Positions 1 to 21,371 of a DNA stretch of 64,000 nucleotides are shown here, piece by piece. The DNA is from Infirmifilum sp. NZ (lineage in GTDB: Archaea > Thermoproteota > Thermoprotei > Thermofilales > Thermofilaceae). The translations under genes and the position numbers were made by a program. Below the pieces are notes generated by a model, which was given only the letters and a program-made list of their open reading frames with translations, was not told the origin of the DNA and did no database searches. Where the stretch lies: the NCBI RefSeq assembly GCF_022693705.1, contig NZ_CP094288.1, positions 1,256,443 through 1,320,442 on the forward strand, read 5' to 3'. Every line of letters starts with the position of its first letter. The stretch's first letter is position 1.

Positions 1-1
1 C

Positions 2-829
2 ATCGAAGTTAGGACGAAGGGAGAGCCTGTAACCCGCGTAAAGCTTGCGGCCGGAAGCTACATTGTATCACTAATCGACTCACCTAAGGGCTACAGTTGC
101 CGCTTGAACACTACCACCATCGAGTGGCGCGATACCACCGATCAGGCCCTGCTGGTAAACTGTTCTCCCGTGAAAGCTGAAAACAGGGCAAGCCTGGCGG
201 AGATCATCGAGAGTATCAGGAGCGAGGTGCAACTAAGCCGCAACGTATCAAAAACCATATCCCTTGGCACCATTACGCAGTACAACGGCCAGCAGCTCGA
301 CCTCGCGTCACTATCCCGGGAGAAAACGCTCGTCGTCGAGCTCTTCTACACGCAGTGCACGGGGTGCAAGTACATGATACCGCTCCTCAGAAGCCTGTCG
401 CAGAGAAACGACACTGTCGTGATCTCCCTTACGGTCTCGCCCTCTGATACACCCGAAATCCTGAAGAGGTACATGCTCGACAACAATATCACATGGTACA
501 TCGGCAGGGACGACGTGCAGCTCGCGAGCCAGGTCAACGCTACGTCTTTTCCAACAGTTCTGGTAGTCAAGGAGGGAAGTATCGTCTTTATGGGTGTAGG
601 TTCGAAGCGCGAGCTCGAAGAGTTAGCGCGTGCACCAAGTTCGATTAGCCTTGAGAGTTTGGTAGCCCCAGAAACCTTAATAATACTCGGCTGTGCCCTC
701 ATCCTGGCCACTCTTGCAGTAGGTGGTGGAGGTGCCAAGGAGAAAGGACAAGCTGAAGAGAGTGATATCTGGCCTTATAGTAGCCATATTCATTCTCTCC
801 ATACTGGCCTACGTGGCGATTACGCTTAA
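2..829 (+). CDS. Membrane-anchored thioredoxin-like protein (5' end outside window)
   Basis: The reading frame is open from the window edge, so the N-terminus is missing. A thioredoxin fold is recognisable: a redox motif C-T-G-C inside 'FYTQCTGCKYM' (near nt 345-375), followed about 60 residues later by the cis-proline segment 'SFPTVLVV' and a glycine-rich end. This matches the TlpA/thioredoxin family of extracytoplasmic disulfide oxidoreductases. A hydrophobic stretch (LIILGCALILATLAV) near the C-terminus could anchor the domain in the membrane. The last 30 residues look unlike natural protein, and another frame there encodes a better membrane helix (see next entry), so the true C-terminus is uncertain. 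The substrate is unknown. Confidence 0.75.
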   Translation: MEVRTKGEPVTRVKLAAGSYIVSLIDSPKGYSCRLNTTTIEWRDTTDQALLVNCSPVKAENRASLAEIIESIRSEVQLSRNVSKTISLGTITQYNGQQLDLASLSREKTLVVELFYTQCTGCKYMIPLLRSLSQRNDTVVISLTVSPSDTPEILKRYMLDNNITWYIGRDDVQLASQVNATSFPTVLVVKEGSIVFMGVGSKRELEELARAPSSISLESLVAPETLIILGCALILATLAVGGGGAKEKGQAEESDIWPYSSHIHSLHTGLRGDYA

Positions 830-10944: not shown

Positions 10945-12477
10945 ATGTGCGCGCAGCTTATCAACACTCGAGTGGACGGGGGCGAGATTCTACTCGAGTT
11001 CTACGAGATAGCTCCCCCCTATGCATACGCTCTCGTTGTCAGGAAGCGCGACGGGGCGCTCGAGTATCGGTTAGTGGAGCCCCCTCTAACACCCGAGGAT
11101 GTTAGGATCCTCGAGAGGATAAAAAGAAACCTTCTGGTATCATCGACCGAACGGTATGACCAGGCGCTCAGGAAGCTGACGAGCGATCCCGAGTCCTTTC
11201 TCGAAGAGGAGGTAAAACGCGTTATTAAGCAGTACAAAATAAGCGTCTCGAGCGAGTCATTCGACAAGTACCTCTACTACATTATGCGGGATACTATAGG
11301 CTACGGCCGCATAGACGCGCTCCTAAAAGACAAGGAGATAGAGGATATCTCTTGCGATGGCGTCGGCGTCCCCGTGTACGTGTGGCACAAGCGCTACGAG
11401 TCAATCCCAACGAACGTGGTGTTTGAGGATCGGGAGGAGCTGGCGAGCCTGCTTTTAAAGCTGACCTACAGAGCCGGCAAGCAGGTCTCCGTCGCTCAAC
11501 CCATCGTCGAGGGCACTCTGCCCATGGGATACCGTCTCCACGTAACCCTAGACGAGGTTTCGAGACGCGGAGGAACATTCACGATCAGGAAGTTCCGCGA
11601 GGTCCCCTTCTCCCTAGTAGACCTCGTGAAGCTCGGAACCATTTCACCGAACCTTGCGGCCTACCTCTGGTACCTGATCGAGAACAACAGGAGCTTGATG
11701 GTGGTCGGCGCTACCGCGGGCGGGAAGACCACGACACTCAACGCCGTAGCAACCTTCATTAGGCCCGAAGCTAAGGTTGTGACGATCGAAGACACCCCCG
11801 AGCTACGCCTCCCCCACGAGAACTGGGTCCCACTTGTAACCAGGCCCAGCTACGAGGAGTGGGTCAGGAACGTCGACCTCTTCGATCTCCTCAAAAGCGC
11901 TATGAGGATGAGGCCAGACTACATAATTATCGGCGAGGTCCGCGGAGAGGAGGCATTTACGCTTTTCCAGGCTATAGCGACCGGTCACGCTGGGATGTGC
12001 ACCCTCCACGCGGAGAACATCGATTACGCTGTGAAGAGGCTGATCTCGCCCCCCATGAACGTCCCCATTTTCCTGTTACCCATGATGAACGTCGTTATAC
12101 TGGTGAGAAGGCTGAAGATAGGCGAGAGGATCGTCAGGCGTGTTGTTAGCGTACAGGAGTTGCTGGGGGTAGACGAGGAGGGGAAAACAGTTGTTTCACG
12201 CGAGGTCTTCAGGGTTAACCCGGTGCTGGACAGGATCGAGCAGGTAGCGGAGAGCGAGCACATTAGAAGGATAGCGGAGGAAAAGTTCACGACCCTGAGC
12301 GAGGTCCAGAAGGAGCTGGAGAGAAGAGTATCCGTGATAGAGTACATGGCTAAGGCGGGTATGACTTCGTACGAGCAGATAAGCCGGGTTGTTAGGGATT
12401 ACTACAGAAACCCGGAGGTGACCTACCGCCTCCTGATGGACGGCTACTACGCGAGGGAAGAAGTTAAGCAAAGGTGA
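10945..12477 (+). CDS. Type IV pilus / archaellum-type secretion ATPase (TadA/GspE family)
   Basis: The 510-residue ATPase has Walker A 'GATAGGKTTT' near residue 254, Walker B and Asp-box 'YIIIGEVRGEEA' near 325, and a His-box 'TGHAGMCTLHA' after that. These define hexameric type II/IV secretion and archaeal pilus assembly ATPases. It powers extension of a surface filament from the cytoplasmic side of the membrane. Two TadC-like membrane platform genes follow with a 4-nt overlap and a 3-nt gap, which is the usual archaeal pilus core. No pilin is recognisable in the window. It lies divergent from the zinc-ribbon gene with TATA-like boxes for both directions between them. Confidence 0.93.
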   Translation: MCAQLINTRVDGGEILLEFYEIAPPYAYALVVRKRDGALEYRLVEPPLTPEDVRILERIKRNLLVSSTERYDQALRKLTSDPESFLEEEVKRVIKQYKISVSSESFDKYLYYIMRDTIGYGRIDALLKDKEIEDISCDGVGVPVYVWHKRYESIPTNVVFEDREELASLLLKLTYRAGKQVSVAQPIVEGTLPMGYRLHVTLDEVSRRGGTFTIRKFREVPFSLVDLVKLGTISPNLAAYLWYLIENNRSLMVVGATAGGKTTTLNAVATFIRPEAKVVTIEDTPELRLPHENWVPLVTRPSYEEWVRNVDLFDLLKSAMRMRPDYIIIGEVRGEEAFTLFQAIATGHAGMCTLHAENIDYAVKRLISPPMNVPIFLLPMMNVVILVRRLKIGERIVRRVVSVQELLGVDEEGKTVVSREVFRVNPVLDRIEQVAESEHIRRIAEEKFTTLSEVQKELERRVSVIEYMAKAGMTSYEQISRVVRDYYRNPEVTYRLLMDGYYAREEVKQR

Positions 12478-13331
12478 GTCCCCTGTCGCTTGAAGCCTTT
12501 ACGGCTAGATTCCTGCAAATAGCGGAGCCTTTTAGGAGGTACTACGAGAGAGCGGGCTTCAGCATCTCCTTTGAAGCGTATGTTGAAAGCATCGTGAAAG
12601 CTCTTGTCCTCGCGGCTGCCTCAACGTTCTCGGTCCTCCTGTTCGTCCACTCCTACATCTTTAAAATCGCCCCGGTTTTCGCCGTGCCAGCCTCCCTCAC
12701 CCTCACTTTAGCGGTTCTACTCATCTTCACGGGATTTATGCTGTACTACCCTGTCTACAGGGCATACTCAAGGCGCGTAAGCATCGAGAAAGACCTCCCG
12801 TTTACGGTGGCATACATGGCGTCGCTAGCGTCCTCAGGCATGGGTCTTGAAAGGCTCCTGGAGAGGGTTGCGGTCTATGAGACGAATAAGGATCTGCGCA
12901 GAGAGTTTTTCCTGGTGTTGAGGGATATCAAGGCTCTAGGCCTCGACACTGTCACCGCTCTAGCCAGGCTGTCAGCCCGATCACCGAGCGCAGCCCTCTC
13001 GTCCTTCGCTCTCGCCCTGAGAGAAGCATACATAACTAGCGGTGATTTGAAGAGCGTGCTGATGCACTACGCGAAGCTGATGCTGGACGAGAAAACCCAA
13101 AGGCTACGCAACCTCGTAAACACTCTGTCCATGCTTGCAGAGGTGTACACAACGATGATGGTTGCCGCGCCGCTGATGTTCATAACCATGTTGATCGTGA
13201 TGAACATCCTCGGCGGGGGCGTTCTCGGCCTCTCTCCAGACATTCTGATCCTCGTGCTGACTTTCATAGTCATCCCGTTTTCCGCTGTTGGCATTTACGT
13301 AGCTATAGATGGATTGATGTCGCGGGTGTAG
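12474..13331 (+). CDS. Type II secretion/pilus platform protein, TadC-like (first copy)
   Basis: This 285-residue integral membrane protein has two helices near residues 40-85, a cytoplasmic T2SSF-type helical domain (about 100-210: 'DLPFTVAYMASLASSGMGLERLLERV') and two helices at the C-terminus. That is the archaeal TadC/FlaJ half-platform layout. GTG overlaps the ATPase stop by 4 nt. It should anchor the ATPase and the growing pilus. Confidence 0.88.
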   Translation: MSPLSLEAFTARFLQIAEPFRRYYERAGFSISFEAYVESIVKALVLAAASTFSVLLFVHSYIFKIAPVFAVPASLTLTLAVLLIFTGFMLYYPVYRAYSRRVSIEKDLPFTVAYMASLASSGMGLERLLERVAVYETNKDLRREFFLVLRDIKALGLDTVTALARLSARSPSAALSSFALALREAYITSGDLKSVLMHYAKLMLDEKTQRLRNLVNTLSMLAEVYTTMMVAAPLMFITMLIVMNILGGGVLGLSPDILILVLTFIVIPFSAVGIYVAIDGLMSRV

Positions 13332-13334
13332 GTA

Positions 13335-14249
13335 ATGCCTTACTTCATGCTCGACTCTAGGCGCACGGCGGTCCTACTATCCCTCGGGCTCGCGCTGGCC
13401 GCAATTCCGATCGCGTATGTACTAGTGGGGCTACGCTACGAGCTTCTTTCGAGCTTGAAGCTGGTAGGCGGTGCACTGATAGTGGTGACGTCTACGCGCG
13501 TTAACGTGCTACTGCTCACCGCGCTGATCCTGGTATTCCTCCCCTACGCTATTGTGGACACCCTTAACAGGATGTACATATCAAGGATAACGAGCATACT
13601 CCCGCACTTCTTCAAGTCCGTAGCGGAAGCCGTTAGGTCTGGTTTAACGCTACACGAGGCCCTGCGGTCGGTCGCGGAGACGGTTCCAGGCCCGCTCAGC
13701 TCCGAGATCAAGAAGGCGCTCGTAGAGGTGGAGCTGGGAGAGCCCCTAAACATTGCTCTTAGAAGGATACCTGTGAGGGTCAGAGACTTAAACGTTGAGA
13801 AAGCTGTGACCATACTGGTAACGGCTAACGAGAGCGGTGGCAGGGTAATCGACGTTCTCGAGTCTGCCGCCGACATCTTCGCGGCTTTAAAAACCTACGA
13901 GGATGAGAAGTCCACCACGATAAACCCACACGTGATAACGGTTTACATATCAACGATAATTTACCTCGTCTTAGCGCTGACAATACTCTACGTATTCGTG
14001 ATACCCCTAGGCGCGCTGCAGAGAACAGGAGGCTTCTTCGGGGCCCTCGACCCACCACTCTACGAGACCATAATGCTGTACTCCGGTGCGATAACAGCCC
14101 TGTCCGGAGGGTTAATTGTAGGCAAGATGAAGCACGGGAGGGCTTCCGCGGGGTTAATCCACTCGGCGGTGCAGCTCTCAATCGTTTCCGCCGGTTTTCT
14201 TCTCGCAGGAATGTACCTGACCCCCCTCACAGTCGTAGGCTCACCGTGA
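13335..14249 (+). CDS. Type II secretion/pilus platform protein, TadC-like (second copy)
   Basis: The 304-residue protein repeats the layout of its neighbour: two N-terminal helices, a cytoplasmic domain with 'ILPHFFKSVAEAVRSGLTLHEAL' (about residues 85-110), and at least three C-terminal helices. Paired platform proteins are common in archaeal pilus systems and correspond to the two halves of a bacterial GspF/FlaJ. It starts with ATG three bases after the previous stop and closes the operon; the following 244 nt hold no obvious gene. Confidence 0.86.
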   Translation: MPYFMLDSRRTAVLLSLGLALAAIPIAYVLVGLRYELLSSLKLVGGALIVVTSTRVNVLLLTALILVFLPYAIVDTLNRMYISRITSILPHFFKSVAEAVRSGLTLHEALRSVAETVPGPLSSEIKKALVEVELGEPLNIALRRIPVRVRDLNVEKAVTILVTANESGGRVIDVLESAADIFAALKTYEDEKSTTINPHVITVYISTIIYLVLALTILYVFVIPLGALQRTGGFFGALDPPLYETIMLYSGAITALSGGLIVGKMKHGRASAGLIHSAVQLSIVSAGFLLAGMYLTPLTVVGSP

Positions 14250-14493: not shown

Positions 14494-17268
14494 GTGAAAA
14501 GAAGGAAGAGCTGGATGATCGCGAAAAGGATCCTGAGTCTTCCTCTAGTTTTTCTTATTGCACTGTCCAGCCTCTTGCTGATTGCTGATTCAGAGCACTG
14601 GTCTTCGTCGGTGGTCTCGTTTGACCGGTTTAACATACTCTCAGTTGCGGTAAGCCAGGATGGCAGTTTTGTAGCCGTGGCTTACGGAGACAACAGGTAC
14701 TACCAGCGCTTTGTCGACGTTTACGCGTCGAATCTATCGCTGGTTTACAGGCTCCAGCTCAACAGCTTCTCCGATGTATCCCCCATATTTCTGGATAACT
14801 CGACACTAGTGGTAACCGAGTTCGTGAAAAACGCCGAGGTTCCTTACTCTTATGTCCACCTCGTCGACATCATTAGGAAAATACATCTTCAGTCCCCTAG
14901 GGTTCCCGGCACCGATCTGAGCGGCGTTAGGAAAGCCGTTGTAGCAGGGTCGACACTGTACATACTGACGGGCAAGTACCTAGTGGGATTTACTCTGGAC
15001 CTGAGCCGTAGAACGTACCTGAAATCCTTTGTTAACACTGGTTTACAGGTGCTGCCGCTGGGTGACAGCGTGGTCGCGCTGTCTGTAGAGACTTTGTGCC
15101 ACATTTGCCTCATGCAAAACGAGAAAGTAATCACTCTGATTACGCCGCGAGGTGAGAGCTCCTACACGATCTGTCATGCTCTCTCGCTAGTAAGGCTACC
15201 CACAGGCAACATGGGCATCGTCTACGACAACTCGACCGTTGAGGAAATCACACTATCAGGAGCAGGCATCAAGCCACTTAGAAAACTCAAACTACCTTTA
15301 CCGCTACAGGGGGTTTCCGAGCCTAGCTACAGGCTCCTGTACTCGCTCGCCCTCAACGGCCTAGAGGTGAGGCTCTCCGTATACAGCTTCGCAGATAGGG
15401 CTCTAAGGGAGCTTCAGATTCCGTTGCCCTACTCGAAGGGCGATCAGATCGGTCTAAGGGTGTACGATGACGGAACCTATCTCGCGTGGGACAATGATAT
15501 CGTCGTGCTGGGTAACCTCAGCGGGATAACGGGTATCGTTAATGCTGGTTTCATTGTCAGAGACGCTCACTACACTAACGGGAAATTATACGTTGTAGGT
15601 GATACCAATCTGGCGATTTTCCAAAGAGCCCCAGCGAGTAGTAGCTATACTCTGACCTTTGAGGTAGTCCCCGAGCAAGGAGGGAGTATCGGCAACCTCA
15701 CCGTGATCGTGAACGGTGCAACGGTAGGCTGTTTTGCAGGATGCTTCAACTTGACTTTACCCAGCGGATTTTACAACGTCACAATCACAACTCCAGGATA
15801 CGTGGCTGTAACAGTCCCGGTGAACCTAACCAGCAACGCGAGGTACACGGTAGTGCTGCAAAGGGTGAAGTGCCCCCTCATCGTCTACGCGTCATCGACG
15901 ACCGGTGGCCAGCCCGAGATTATCGTCTACAGAGGGAATGCGAGCCTGGCTCGTGGCGTAGGGTACCTCGAAGTGCTACTTCCGGAGGGTAATTACACCG
16001 TAGTTGTATCCTACGGCAACTTTACTCAAACCAGAACTGTCAGCCTTCGTGGCAGAACAGAGATAAGAATCATAGTAAACAGCACTTACACTCAGCAGGG
16101 CCTCAATGCCTCAGAACCTAACACCCCGGTCGAGGGAAATTCCAGCATTACGGCCGTCGTGTACGGAGAGGAGACGTGCCCCGACTGCAGGCAGACGAGA
16201 GAGTTGCTCAGCAGAGCTGTAGAACGTTTAGTCTTCAAGGATATCTCCAACCAAACGTTCCTTGCGGAGTACAACTACCTGTACCAGCTTGCCCTAAGAG
16301 AGTTCCCCAGGGTAGTCCCCCTGACGCTCGTGTTTAAGGGAGAACGGTTGCTTGCTGTCGTTGTTGGTCCCCAGGACGAGGCAAGCTGGATCAAAATCCT
16401 GAGCTTAAACCCGGGCAATGCCACGTTAGTGGTCACCTACCAGGGTGAGTGGGTGTACCGCTCATTCAACTCGACCGAAGCGTACAGGATTGCCCTGCAG
16501 GAGGCCCCACCTCCAAGCCCCACTCCAACAACAAAGACCAGCGAGCTTCTGCCTACGATCCTAGCCTTAGCGGCTGCGGACTCCATTAACCCCTGCACTC
16601 TCATGGTGTTCGCGGCTTTGATCATGGCCGTCATGGGGATAAGCGGGAGGAGGAAGGCTGTGTCGGCCTCCGTCGCGTTCATTTCGGCGGTGTACGTCTG
16701 CTACCTACTCTTAGGATTAGGGTTGATAAGGTTCATGTCTCTCTTCAGCTGGCTGAAGTACTTCGTTGCTATGGTTACAGTGGTGGCAGGTGCTTACGCG
16801 GTGATCCAGTCGACTTTCACGTGGCAGGAGGGCTGCAGAGACGAGCATGCAGGGCAGAAAGCCTATTCCTCCAACATTCGCCGATACTTCGACCTTATCT
16901 CCCAGAAACTCAACAGCGCGTCGCAGCTATTTCTCACAAGGGCTCAGAAGGGTAGTATTGTCGCTGCGTTCCTCGCCGGAGCTGCTGTGAGCTTTACGCT
17001 TCTACCCTGCAGTAGCGGACCATACATCGTAGCTACCTACATGCTCGCAGGCGAGAGCCCTGCGGTTGCACTCCTCCTTCTACTGCTTTACAACTTCGTC
17101 TTCGTCCTACCCCTCGTTGCCATAGCGGCGGGCACGATTATCGGCGGGAGGCTACTCTTAATGGTCGATGCAGTCACAGTGCATTTGAATGCTTTGAGGA
17201 GGTGGACCGAGCTTGCACTCGGCCTGCTCCTGATCTTGCTGGGGATTTATATAGTGCTTTTCCGCTGA
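14494..17268 (+). CDS. Multidomain envelope protein: beta-propeller, PEGA-like, thioredoxin, CcdA-like membrane domain
   Basis: This 924-residue protein starts with a basic signal/anchor segment (about 1-30). Residues 35-375 have repeated beta strands like a propeller. Residues 387-545 hold two PEGA-like beta domains ('GFYNVTITTPGY', 'PEGNYTVVVSYG'). Residues 550-660 are thioredoxin-like with Cys562-P-D-Cys565 and 'RVVPLTLV' around the cis-proline. The last 240 residues are six or so helices with 'SINPCT' near 700 and 'LPCSSGPY' near 836, as in CcdA/DsbD electron conduits. It likely passes electrons from the cytoplasm to the outer thioredoxin domain. GTG 14494 is used, but a TATA-like TTTTTAAG at 14480-14487 would favour ATG 14515. 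Confidence 0.8.
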   Translation: MKRRKSWMIAKRILSLPLVFLIALSSLLLIADSEHWSSSVVSFDRFNILSVAVSQDGSFVAVAYGDNRYYQRFVDVYASNLSLVYRLQLNSFSDVSPIFLDNSTLVVTEFVKNAEVPYSYVHLVDIIRKIHLQSPRVPGTDLSGVRKAVVAGSTLYILTGKYLVGFTLDLSRRTYLKSFVNTGLQVLPLGDSVVALSVETLCHICLMQNEKVITLITPRGESSYTICHALSLVRLPTGNMGIVYDNSTVEEITLSGAGIKPLRKLKLPLPLQGVSEPSYRLLYSLALNGLEVRLSVYSFADRALRELQIPLPYSKGDQIGLRVYDDGTYLAWDNDIVVLGNLSGITGIVNAGFIVRDAHYTNGKLYVVGDTNLAIFQRAPASSSYTLTFEVVPEQGGSIGNLTVIVNGATVGCFAGCFNLTLPSGFYNVTITTPGYVAVTVPVNLTSNARYTVVLQRVKCPLIVYASSTTGGQPEIIVYRGNASLARGVGYLEVLLPEGNYTVVVSYGNFTQTRTVSLRGRTEIRIIVNSTYTQQGLNASEPNTPVEGNSSITAVVYGEETCPDCRQTRELLSRAVERLVFKDISNQTFLAEYNYLYQLALREFPRVVPLTLVFKGERLLAVVVGPQDEASWIKILSLNPGNATLVVTYQGEWVYRSFNSTEAYRIALQEAPPPSPTPTTKTSELLPTILALAAADSINPCTLMVFAALIMAVMGISGRRKAVSASVAFISAVYVCYLLLGLGLIRFMSLFSWLKYFVAMVTVVAGAYAVIQSTFTWQEGCRDEHAGQKAYSSNIRRYFDLISQKLNSASQLFLTRAQKGSIVAAFLAGAAVSFTLLPCSSGPYIVATYMLAGESPAVALLLLLLYNFVFVLPLVAIAAGTIIGGRLLLMVDAVTVHLNALRRWTELALGLLLILLGIYIVLFR

Positions 17269-17460: not shown

Positions 17461-18660
17461 GTGTACCTGGAGCCTGAAGAGGAGAAGATTCTGAACGGTG
17501 AGTTCGGGCAGGGTAAGGCCCTTGCGCTCAAGGCTGTCGTCAAGGTGGGTGAGGCGCTGGGGGCTGAGCGCCTAATTAGGATTAAGCACGCCCATGTGTC
17601 GGGGGTTTCCTACAAGAACATCGGAGACGAGGGGTTAGAATTCCTCGAGGAGCTTGCTCGGAGTGGCGCGCGGGTAAGCGTCCCGGCGACGATGAACCCG
17701 GGGGGTTTCGACACGGCGCTTTGGCCGTACATGAGAGTTTCTGCAGACTTCGTCGAGAAGCAGAACAGAATAATCAAGGCTCTATCCGAGATCGGCGTTA
17801 GGCCCACTCTCACCTGCACTCCTTACCTGTACGAAAAGGTGAGCTACGGGGATCACATAGCGTGGTCTGAGAGCAACGCGGTGCTCTACGCCAACAGCGT
17901 TATCGGAGCTAGGACAAACAGGGACGGGGGCCCGCTCGCCCTCCTCGAGGCCATATCTGGGAGAGCCCCCCTTGCTGGCCTTCACCTGGAGTCGAACAGG
18001 AGACCCCAGCTCATAATAGACTTCGAAGAAGTGGGATCGCTTGTAGCTGAGAGAGGGCTCTACCACGTTGCAGGCCTCGTAGTGGGCAGGACTGCTGGCG
18101 ATAGGGTGCCGCTGGTTAGGGGCTTACCGCTGAGGCGGGAGAACGTGCCAGAGATAAAGGTGTTTTTGGCGGCTGTTGGAGCAGCGGGTGGGACGGGGCT
18201 TGTTCTGATCGAAGGCATCTCCCCTGAGCGCTACGAGGCACGTGACTTGGAGAGGGTGCCTGTGGACGCGAAGTCTTTGTATGAGACTCTCGAAGAGTAC
18301 CAGGGGAGCCCTACCGAAAGTGCGGTGGTGGTGCTTGGCTGCCCTCACTTATCTCTCGAAGAAGTTATGGACGTAGTTAGCTTCTTCTCTGATAGAGGGC
18401 CGGCAAGGCGAAGAGTAATACTTTACACAAGCAGAGAAGTGTATGAAGCGATTAGCGGGCACGTTGAGAAGCTCAGGGCAAAGAACCTGTACGTTTTCGC
18501 GGATACATGCATGGTTGTTTCACCCCTCTCCATGTACGCGGGGAGAGAGGTTGTGACGGACTCAGGTAAGGCGGCCTTCTACCTGAAGGCGCAAGGCTAT
18601 AAGGTCGTTTTGAAGTCCCGCAGAGAAGCGCTGGAGTATGCTGCAGGTGGTGGCGGATGA
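17461..18660 (+). CDS. Phosphomevalonate dehydratase large subunit (AcnX catalytic)
   Basis: The 399-residue protein is an aconitase X large subunit: 'HAHVSGVSYKNIGDEG' near residue 43, 'NPGGFD' near 79, 'TPYLYEK' near 120, 'WSESNAVLYANSVIGARTN' near 140 and 'GGTGLVLIEG' near 240. In archaea the AcnX pair dehydrates mevalonate 5-phosphate in the modified mevalonate pathway (shown in Aeropyrum). It would hold a 4Fe-4S cluster. The small-subunit gene follows with a 4-nt overlap. TTTTAAAG at 17421-17428 is a plausible TATA box. An AcnX hydratase acting on proline derivatives is less likely in an archaeon needing isoprenoid lipids. Confidence 0.88.
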   Translation: MYLEPEEEKILNGEFGQGKALALKAVVKVGEALGAERLIRIKHAHVSGVSYKNIGDEGLEFLEELARSGARVSVPATMNPGGFDTALWPYMRVSADFVEKQNRIIKALSEIGVRPTLTCTPYLYEKVSYGDHIAWSESNAVLYANSVIGARTNRDGGPLALLEAISGRAPLAGLHLESNRRPQLIIDFEEVGSLVAERGLYHVAGLVVGRTAGDRVPLVRGLPLRRENVPEIKVFLAAVGAAGGTGLVLIEGISPERYEARDLERVPVDAKSLYETLEEYQGSPTESAVVVLGCPHLSLEEVMDVVSFFSDRGPARRRVILYTSREVYEAISGHVEKLRAKNLYVFADTCMVVSPLSMYAGREVVTDSGKAAFYLKAQGYKVVLKSRREALEYAAGGGG

Positions 18661-19064
18661 GAGTTGTGGGGCGCCCTGTTTCGGAGGGGATAGGGAGGGG
18701 CGAGGTGCTCGTCTCAGAGGAGCCTATAACCTTCTTCGGCGGCGTCGATCCGGCAACCTCTGAGGTCGTCGAGCCCTCACACCCTCTCAAGGGGGTGAAG
18801 CTTGCTGGCAAGGTGCTGGTCTTCCCTCACTCGAAGGGTAGCACGGTTGGCTCCTACATCCTGCTCAGGTTAGCCAAGCGCGGCCTAGCTCCAGCAGGCA
18901 TCGTCACGGTTAAGCCCGACGAAGTTGTGATAATAGGGTGCATAATAGCCGGCATTCCGTCCATGACCGGCATAAGTGAGGAGGCTCTGGGCGAGATACC
19001 CTCGGGAGCGCTAGGAGAACTGCGCGTGGGGCGGGATCATGCAGAGCTCAGAATCAACGAGTGA
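18657..19064 (+). CDS. Phosphomevalonate dehydratase small subunit (AcnX swivel domain)
   Basis: The 135-residue protein has the swivelling-domain signature of AcnX/DUF126: 'RPVSEGIGRGEVLVSEEPITFFGGVDP' in the first 30 residues, 'GKVLVFPHSKGSTVGSY' near 50 and 'GIPSMTG' near 100. It completes the heterodimeric dehydratase encoded upstream (4-nt overlap). It also overlaps the next gene by 26 nt. Confidence 0.88.
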   Translation: MRVVGRPVSEGIGRGEVLVSEEPITFFGGVDPATSEVVEPSHPLKGVKLAGKVLVFPHSKGSTVGSYILLRLAKRGLAPAGIVTVKPDEVVIIGCIIAGIPSMTGISEEALGEIPSGALGELRVGRDHAELRINE

Positions 19065-19946: not shown

Positions 19947-21371
19947 CTACCTCGCCATGTTTCGCGGCGCTCCGTGGACCAGTGCCTTGGAGGCGCGCAG
20001 CCACCTGCTCAGCGCCTCGAGGTTTTTCTCGGCTTTGCAGGCTTTTAGGAAGAGCTTGGCGGCGTTGGCGCAAGCGGCCCAGTCCCTGCCGTAGGTTACG
20101 TCGCACCTGGTGCATCGGTAGTAGCGCTTCTCCAGCTCTACGCCCCGAGCTCCGCAGACCGGGCACTGCTTCCCGCTGATGTTGCTCTCCGGCTGGAACC
20201 ACTTGGCGCCCTCGTAGAGCGCTAGGTTCTCCAGCCTCTCCGCGACCCTGAGCAGTGTTCGCTGGAGCTTCGTTCCCCTGAGGGACTCGGCCCTGGGCAC
20301 GTCCGCGACGAGTACGACCATATAGCCTTGGTCCCTAAGCCTCCTGACCAGGTCTCTCAGCTCCTTTAGGGTTGCCCTGACCCAGTCCTCGTTCACCTTC
20401 TTCACCTTCCTGAGGGCCTGCCTGGCAATCCTCTCGGCGCGCTCCGGCGTTAGGTTCATCTTCGCCCTGAGCCTCTCCGCCAGCCTCAAGGCCTCCTCCA
20501 CCGCGTAGCCCCTCCCTGTTCTCCCCAGCTTTTCGGCACCTCTCTCCTGTCTGAACCTCTCAACGGCCTGCTCCCAGCTCTTAACCTTGGAGTAGCTCGC
20601 CATGACAGCCGCGAGGAGCCTCAGCAACGTCGTGTTGGGAGTCTTAAACACGCGCTGAGCCACCAGCCTCACGTCCTTGTCGAAGGCGAAGGCCATCACA
20701 TAGAGCCCGTGATTCGAGTTCACGTCCACCGCTACGATGGCCAATTTGACGTCGCCGTCCCACCACGCCCGCCTAACCTTGCGGTGAGCCACCAGCCTCA
20801 GTCTCCCCTTTGCGGTGAGCTGCAACGTGAGCTTGACGTCGCCGAACCTTTCGATGTCCTCGAGCACAGCCCTGACCATTGAGGGCTTCAGCCTTATCGC
20901 GACGCTAGCGCTGGGAACGCGTAGCTCGCCCCTGGAGGCGTCGAGCACCGCAACAGCGGCAGTGTTGCCGTGAAGCCTCTCGCCACTGTTGACCACCTTG
21001 ACCAGTAGCGGCACTGGAGGCGGGGTGAACCTGCTGCGCCTCCTCGACTTCCTCCTGGCCTCCGCGACCATCCTGCGCCACTCCACGGCGTACCAGAAAA
21101 GGCCCTTCGGCAGCCCAGCAATCCTCGAAGCCTCCCCGATCAGCTCTTCGCTGAACTTCTCCGGCTCCTCCCTGAAGGCCTCGCCGTGCCTCTCTTTGAG
21201 GACCTTGCACGCCTCCTTGACCGCGCTCGACAGCCTCACATAGAGCCGCTGAAGCCTCAGCCTCACCTCCCTGCTGGCCTTTACCTCCCAGACCCTGTAG
21301 ACGTCGACGAGCCTATCGCCGCCCCTCTTGTTCTCCCAGCCCCATGTTGCCACTTCCAGGGAGCCTGGCAC
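19947..21371 (-). CDS. tnpB: TnpB-like RNA-guided nuclease/homologue, possible catalytic Glu missing
   Basis: This 474-residue protein has the TnpB plan: helical N-terminal part, beta/helical recognition part, RuvC-like motif 'AIVAVDVNSNHG' (Asp216), a C4 zinc finger (Cys403, 406, 420, 423) and the final 'YGRDWAACANAA' with Asp430. The second RuvC position, normally Glu in 'VxEDL', reads 'VLVADVPRAES' here, with Ala356 where Glu is expected; Glu362 is the only nearby acid. The protein may thus be nuclease-inactive, or the alignment shifts. A 44-residue tail follows Asp430. Start GTG is as read; a TATA-like box near 21433 lies about 65 nt upstream. GC content is high compared with neighbours. 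Confidence 0.85.
   Translation of the reverse strand: MPGSLEVATWGWENKRGGDRLVDVYRVWEVKASREVRLRLQRLYVRLSSAVKEACKVLKERHGEAFREEPEKFSEELIGEASRIAGLPKGLFWYAVEWRRMVAEARRKSRRRSRFTPPPVPLLVKVVNSGERLHGNTAAVAVLDASRGELRVPSASVAIRLKPSMVRAVLEDIERFGDVKLTLQLTAKGRLRLVAHRKVRRAWWDGDVKLAIVAVDVNSNHGLYVMAFAFDKDVRLVAQRVFKTPNTTLLRLLAAVMASYSKVKSWEQAVERFRQERGAEKLGRTGRGYAVEEALRLAERLRAKMNLTPERAERIARQALRKVKKVNEDWVRATLKELRDLVRRLRDQGYMVVLVADVPRAESLRGTKLQRTLLRVAERLENLALYEGAKWFQPESNISGKQCPVCGARGVELEKRYYRCTRCDVTYGRDWAACANAAKLFLKACKAEKNLEALSRWLRASKALVHGAPRNMAR

Follow-up and report, generated by a model that had tools for sequence, protein, structure and literature searches.

How a single archaeal polypeptide might use its cysteines when it carries an extracellular part, a thioredoxin-fold domain and a polytopic membrane domain is the question raised by positions 14494-17268 of the window, by which we mean the whole stretch of 64,000 nucleotides of Infirmifilum sp. 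NZ analysed here. The initial annotation had described a single frame of 924 residues that joins an extracellular propeller-like part, two PEGA-like repeats, a C-P-D-C thioredoxin and a membrane domain with N-P-C and L-P-C motifs, and had read it as a self-contained redox device with a CcdA-type conduit. The order of domains that we recognize is a signal peptide, a propeller-like domain, two PEGA-like domains, a CPDC glutaredoxin-like domain and a membrane domain of six predicted helices; a further cysteine pair in the propeller, missed by the initial annotation, is central to our analysis. The features are as follows.

14494..17268, + strand: whole gene, 924 aa
14494..14592, + strand: N-terminal hydrophobic signal sequence, residues 1-33
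14593..15648, + strand: beta-propeller-like domain, residues 34-385
15097..15108, + strand: invariant propeller CxxC, C202-H-I-C205
15649..15861, + strand: PEGA/CarboxypepD_reg-like domain 1, residues 386-456
15862..16083, + strand: PEGA-like domain 2, residues 457-530
16144..16533, + strand: glutaredoxin/thioredoxin-like domain, residues 551-680
16177..16188, + strand: CPDC active-site motif, C562/C565
16543..17265, + strand: CcdA-like six-helix membrane domain, residues 684-924
16588..16596, + strand: N-P-C motif in helix 1 (C701)
17002..17010, + strand: L-P-C motif in helix 4 (C839)
1..829, + strand: C-terminal part of a propeller-PEGA-Trx-TM paralogue

The gene is one open frame with orthologues, and it is under purifying selection: since the copy in Thermofilum sp. 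NZ13, to which it is 94% identical, gives a dN/dS of 0.20 for the gene as a whole and of <0.3 for every domain, with the frame kept throughout, it is a real gene rather than a chance frame. The start codon is GTG, with an alternative ATG at codon 8. The search for related loci returned one genome (NZ13) only, and no viral relatives; AlphaFold2 models of residues 30-531 (pLDDT 38.3) and 543-924 (pLDDT 43.4), calculated from alignments of two near-identical rows, are uninformative. A hydropathy peak at residues 6-34 marks the signal sequence. Residues 34-683 contain 17 N-glycosylation sequons (shuffled mean 5.4; none of 2000 shuffles reached this number) and the membrane part, formed by the final 241 residues, contains none, which suggests that the former stretch is outside the cell and the C-terminal end in the membrane.

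With the 924-aa sequence alone the library models do not detect the propeller. A profile of the family, however, matches WD40/BamB propellers in the PDB (Utp21, 2.3e-6; BamB, 2.9e-5), and Pfam WD40/propeller models match relatives of the protein; together these results suggest that residues 34-385 form a divergent WD40/BamB-like propeller, as the initial annotation had proposed in more general terms. Of the two PEGA-like repeats, the first is assigned with certainty on its profile match (PF08308, residues 402-454, 31.2 bits against a cut-off of 20.8, E 2.1e-7), whereas the second, for which no Pfam match above cut-off was obtained in the 924-aa protein, is a likely repeat judging by its pattern and by alignments with relatives, in which G499 and Y501 are nearly invariant. 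The CPDC motif also stands, but the domain around it is nearest to glutaredoxin rather than to classical thioredoxin, as indicated by PF00462 (0.0043, with the C-terminal piece as query) and by the match of its family profile to the PDB glutaredoxin 5cax (8.6e-6). Both cysteines of the motif are invariant in 18 homologues; in the cis-Pro region P609 is invariant in the eight fusion proteins described below and present in at least 90% of the wider family.

The N-P-C and L-P-C motifs fall in hydrophobic stretches whose pattern would fit six membrane helices. None of the library models, PF02683 and DsbD included, matches the membrane part of the 924-aa protein, and when only the membrane profile was searched against PDB sequences there was no match up to E 10. 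We compared by hhalign a profile of 18 relatives with one of 13 canonical CcdA domains from the same archaea: the match is 97.4% (E 1e-11) over the whole domain, with N-P-C701 placed on T-P-C and L-P-C839 on A-P-C, so that both cysteines are in register, while a control with an unrelated polytopic family (TadC-type membrane proteins of pili) gave 0.1%. The N-P-C motif is invariant in 18 of 18 homologues, as are the proline and cysteine of L-P-C; the initial annotation, which would have been refuted by CcdA cysteines that vary among homologues, is supported on this point. In the homologues the library matches are mixed: PF02683 reaches 19.7 bits, below cut-off, in one of them (G013); SfLAP (PF11139) matches three, at best with 3e-10, reaches 41.7 bits against a cut-off of 35 in one orthologue (G007), and has no above-cut-off match in the 924-aa protein; the ArsG permease model also matches three (1.3e-4), and DsbD is weaker in the homologues that match SfLAP or ArsG. 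Since the PF02683 and DsbD models do not match the protein and some relatives match SfLAP or ArsG instead, we call the domain CcdA-like and not a member of PF02683.

The distribution of these domains was studied in 81 genomes from the class and 398 from the phylum, a sample of one phylum in which several genomes are incomplete drafts. Propellers bearing the cysteine motif occur only in the Thermofilum order; weak propeller matches outside the order cover other stretches of the profile and are not members. Four architectures can be recognized. The fusion of propeller, PEGA, glutaredoxin-like and CcdA-like domains (architecture A) is found in eight genomes (G000, G002-G005, G007, G010, G012; the copies in the last three run to contig ends) and is kept in its own genus and two sister genera. 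Architecture B, propeller-PEGA-TM with 646-715 aa, is found in G008, G009, G011, G013-G016, G018, G022 and G024 (the G015 copy, partly masked, was excluded from the alignments). Architecture C, propeller-PEGA-Trx-TM, comprises 17 sequences, and architecture D, propeller-PEGA-TM-Trx-CcdA, is a single protein of 1116 aa (G019, L125:510-3857) with a different CcdA-like domain (hhalign 87%, E 3.9e-6); thus the propeller-PEGA unit occurs in two different fusions with a CcdA-type conduit. In the tree a branch (94/88) separates C from A, B and D, and among the latter A and B are not cleanly separated; either fusion or splitting may have happened repeatedly in one line, or the tree may lack resolution at this point.

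In the other genera of the family and order the propeller-PEGA-TM protein and a Grx-CcdA protein of ~395 aa are encoded by separate genes, and 9 of the 10 genomes with architecture B have the latter, complete or at a contig end. The split genes were not found adjacent to each other: they lie on different contigs, and in G008 both are mid-contig. The same domain order does recur in other Thermofilales genomes, where the initial annotation had proposed to look for it. Separate genes in relatives, which the initial annotation would have counted against its reading, are found as well, apparently unlinked; the fusion is real and conserved, but the notion of a self-contained device is weakened. The occurrence of propeller-PEGA and Grx-CcdA as one gene in certain lineages and as two in others suggests that they work together. 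Overall, Grx-CcdA is present in 102 of the 398 Thermoproteota genomes (about a quarter), mostly without a propeller, so it does not need one; it is found in 15 of 19 propeller genomes and in 87 of 379 others (Fisher 9e-7, a value that ignores kinship within the phylum sample). Among these proteins there are two genes in tandem in one genome (L016 and L028, G008:C13:81211-83576), and relatives with two glutaredoxin-like domains before the membrane domain (L020, L021).

The propeller itself is poorly conserved (10-56% identity to the 924-aa protein where measured) with one exception. An alignment of nine propellers has N181, T200, C202 and C205 as its only invariant residues; with 26 and then 35 propellers C202 and C205 alone are left. 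In the largest alignment, 241 columns have a residue in 90% or more of the rows; among these, both cysteines are at 100%, the threonine at 94%, and the next best column at 76%, the motif being mostly [DEN]T-x-C-x-x-C. It is present in every protein and, where the N-terminus is complete, lies at residue 171-231; a second CxxC within the first 400 residues is found in one protein only. Proteins that lack any thioredoxin domain retain it, as does the Trx paralogue. Because the propeller holds the only invariant residues of its family, it is probably more than an anchor for a target.

These results can be interpreted in several ways. Disulfides often stabilize the extracellular proteins of hyperthermophiles, and the propeller pair could be a permanent bond that stiffens a loop at high temperature, with the Grx-CcdA part reducing other exported proteins and propeller and PEGA domains serving for anchoring or display only; some members do have additional, unconserved cysteines in the propeller. 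We consider this unlikely, as a bond that merely stabilizes should have disappeared from some of 35 such divergent sequences, yet it is their only invariant feature, and cysteines spaced as CxxC are typically those of redox or metal sites. The latter possibility, in which the pair binds zinc as a hook between two molecules, or another metal, for dimerization, would agree with a single CxxC per propeller at a constant position; we regard it as highly improbable, given that a third or fourth conserved ligand was not found and that the repeated association with Trx/Grx and CcdA domains would be left unexplained.

Two other explanations were considered. Protein binding is a common role of both PEGA domains and propellers, and the propeller might be a sensor whose CxxC state, set by the glutaredoxin-like or thioredoxin domain, switches the binding of a partner (surface layer, pilus or other cells) without passing electrons on. 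The pilus assembly genes at 10945-14249 adjoin the gene here and lie near it in two other genomes; nevertheless, five further fusion genomes were examined and lack this linkage, the protein bears no signalling domain, and we judge a sensor quite unlikely. SfLAP and DsbD belong to one superfamily (LysE). The SfLAP and ArsG matches, among the best library matches of the homologues, raise the further possibility that the membrane domain is one of the LysE-superfamily transporters and moves a thiol-reactive solute (metal or metalloid) that its cysteines bind or reduce. This appears very unlikely in view of the two invariant Pro-Cys motifs at CcdA positions in a domain that aligns with CcdA throughout, and of the dithiol glutaredoxin-like domain that precedes it in 18 of 18 aligned homologues.

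We favor instead the view that the 924-aa protein is a DsbD-like transmembrane thiol-disulfide relay in one polypeptide, to which we assign a probability of about 0.5. Reducing equivalents from a cytosolic thiol donor would enter the CcdA-like domain at C701 and C839, be handed to the outward-facing glutaredoxin-like domain (C562/C565) and reach the propeller pair C202/C205, a terminal thiol unit on which surface targets would dock; the PEGA domains would act as spacer arms, and sister lineages would assemble the same relay from two proteins. What we observe is the arrangement of the domains, three pairs of cysteines that do not vary, an extracellular signature, and repeated fusion and separation; from this we infer the transfer of electrons, its direction from the cytosol outward, the step from glutaredoxin-like domain to propeller, and the target. 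The relay is favored by the invariance of C701, C839 and the glutaredoxin-like CxxC in the 18 homologues; by the match of the membrane domain to canonical CcdA (97.4%) against 0.1% for the control; by a propeller CxxC that supplies the only fully invariant columns and is kept without a thioredoxin domain and in the paralogue; by the joining of the propeller-PEGA unit to Grx-CcdA, to Trx-TM, and to Trx with a different CcdA-like domain; by the separate Grx-CcdA gene in 9 of 10 genomes with a stand-alone propeller-PEGA-TM; and by the sequons that mark residues 34-683 as extracellular. Against it are the poor AlphaFold2 models, the missing DsbD_TM match, the SfLAP/ArsG matches in homologues, the split partners that are not neighbours, and the confinement of the propeller to one order while Grx-CcdA is mostly found without it. 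That the propeller is itself a redox-active thiol-disulfide exchange domain, replacing nDsbD as the terminal hub of the transmembrane relay and combined, in a single order of archaea, with various Trx/Grx and CcdA modules, is a more tentative claim, for which we would put the chances slightly short of even.

In DsbD, electrons pass from cytosolic thioredoxin to a membrane cysteine pair, then to a thioredoxin-fold domain and to a periplasmic hub of the Ig fold (PMC3961690); there too, a thioredoxin-fold domain connects the membrane domain to a terminal domain of non-thioredoxin type, which argues for the relay. Both proteins combine an extracytosolic terminal unit of non-thioredoxin type, a thioredoxin-fold mediator and a membrane domain with a cysteine pair in one polypeptide, with three cysteine pairs in series. 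The terminal unit of DsbD, however, is an Ig fold with Cys103/Cys109 and not a propeller with a CxxC, and its mediator follows the membrane domain, whereas here a glutaredoxin-like mediator precedes it. The order is propeller-PEGA-PEGA-Grx-TM rather than n-tm-c, with PEGA spacers, in an archaeal protein whose membrane domain DsbD models do not recognize. Like CcdA (PF02683), the membrane domain has six predicted helices and one Pro-Cys each in helices 1 and 4; unlike CcdA, it shows NPCTF and LPCSSGP in place of the canonical PCxxPxxP context and is fused to glutaredoxin-like, PEGA and propeller domains. The stand-alone archaeal Grx-CcdA proteins (about 360-430 aa) are homologous to the C-terminal 375 residues and have identical invariant cysteines, but they lack propeller and PEGA domains. 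BamB and WD40 propellers, to whose fold family the profile matches point, are not known to have redox partner domains or a conserved CxxC.

A literature search found no description of an extracytosolic reducing pathway in these archaea, and no paper in which PEGA domain, beta-propeller, thioredoxin and archaea occur together. The protein, which belongs to hot-spring archaea of the Thermofilum group, looks like an independent counterpart of bacterial DsbD whose end domain is of a type not previously observed in that relay; if the relay is real, a propeller with its unvarying CxxC would add to the non-thioredoxin folds that end a CcdA-type relay, and the fused and split versions, together with the Trx paralogue, make its wiring directly testable.

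A second thioredoxin-membrane gene had been noted at the start of the window. It does encode a thioredoxin domain and a membrane helix, but what lies in the window is the C-terminal third of a propeller-PEGA paralogue of 843 aa (full gene G000:C1:1254740-1257271), in which a propeller (CELC, beyond the window) is followed by two PEGA-type domains, a thioredoxin domain (CTGC, at 356-367) and one membrane helix. Its CxxC thioredoxin domain beside a single helix resembles anchored thioredoxins of the TlpA/ResA type, which differ in having neither a propeller with its own CxxC nor two PEGA-type domains. The paralogue is probably a second branch of the relay, fed by another CcdA; as a guess, this may be the separate canonical CcdA of the same genome (G000:C1:677293-677844). 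Just outside the window, upstream of the paralogue (L186:6017-7738), are a gene for a UppS-like cis-prenyltransferase (PF01255 in the G004 copy) and one for a 147-aa coiled-coil protein, the latter adjoining the Trx-type propeller gene in most genomes of this order. Genes similar to those of HMG-CoA synthase and thiolase are also nearby.

The pilus genes mentioned above encode one T2SSE ATPase and two T2SSF membrane proteins of type IV pilus-type assembly. They adjoin the fusion gene in G000 and G005, are close by in G010 (3 of 8 genomes), and are absent beside it in G002, G003, G004, G007 and G012; a pilus link as a general rule was thus rejected. PMC4858521 deals with pilus loci of Thermofilum, and neither a propeller nor a PEGA protein is mentioned in its text. 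On the other side, at 17461-19064, the genes for the large and small subunits of aconitase-X (mevalonate pathway) adjoin the fusion gene in all the Thermofilum genomes that were examined. A functional link to these or to the glycogen/maltokinase genes was considered and set aside, the conserved gene order probably reflecting neighbourhood only. Farther downstream, on the - strand at 19947-21371, a frame of 474 aa with a CPVC...CTRC zinc motif encodes a putative transposon-associated TnpB.
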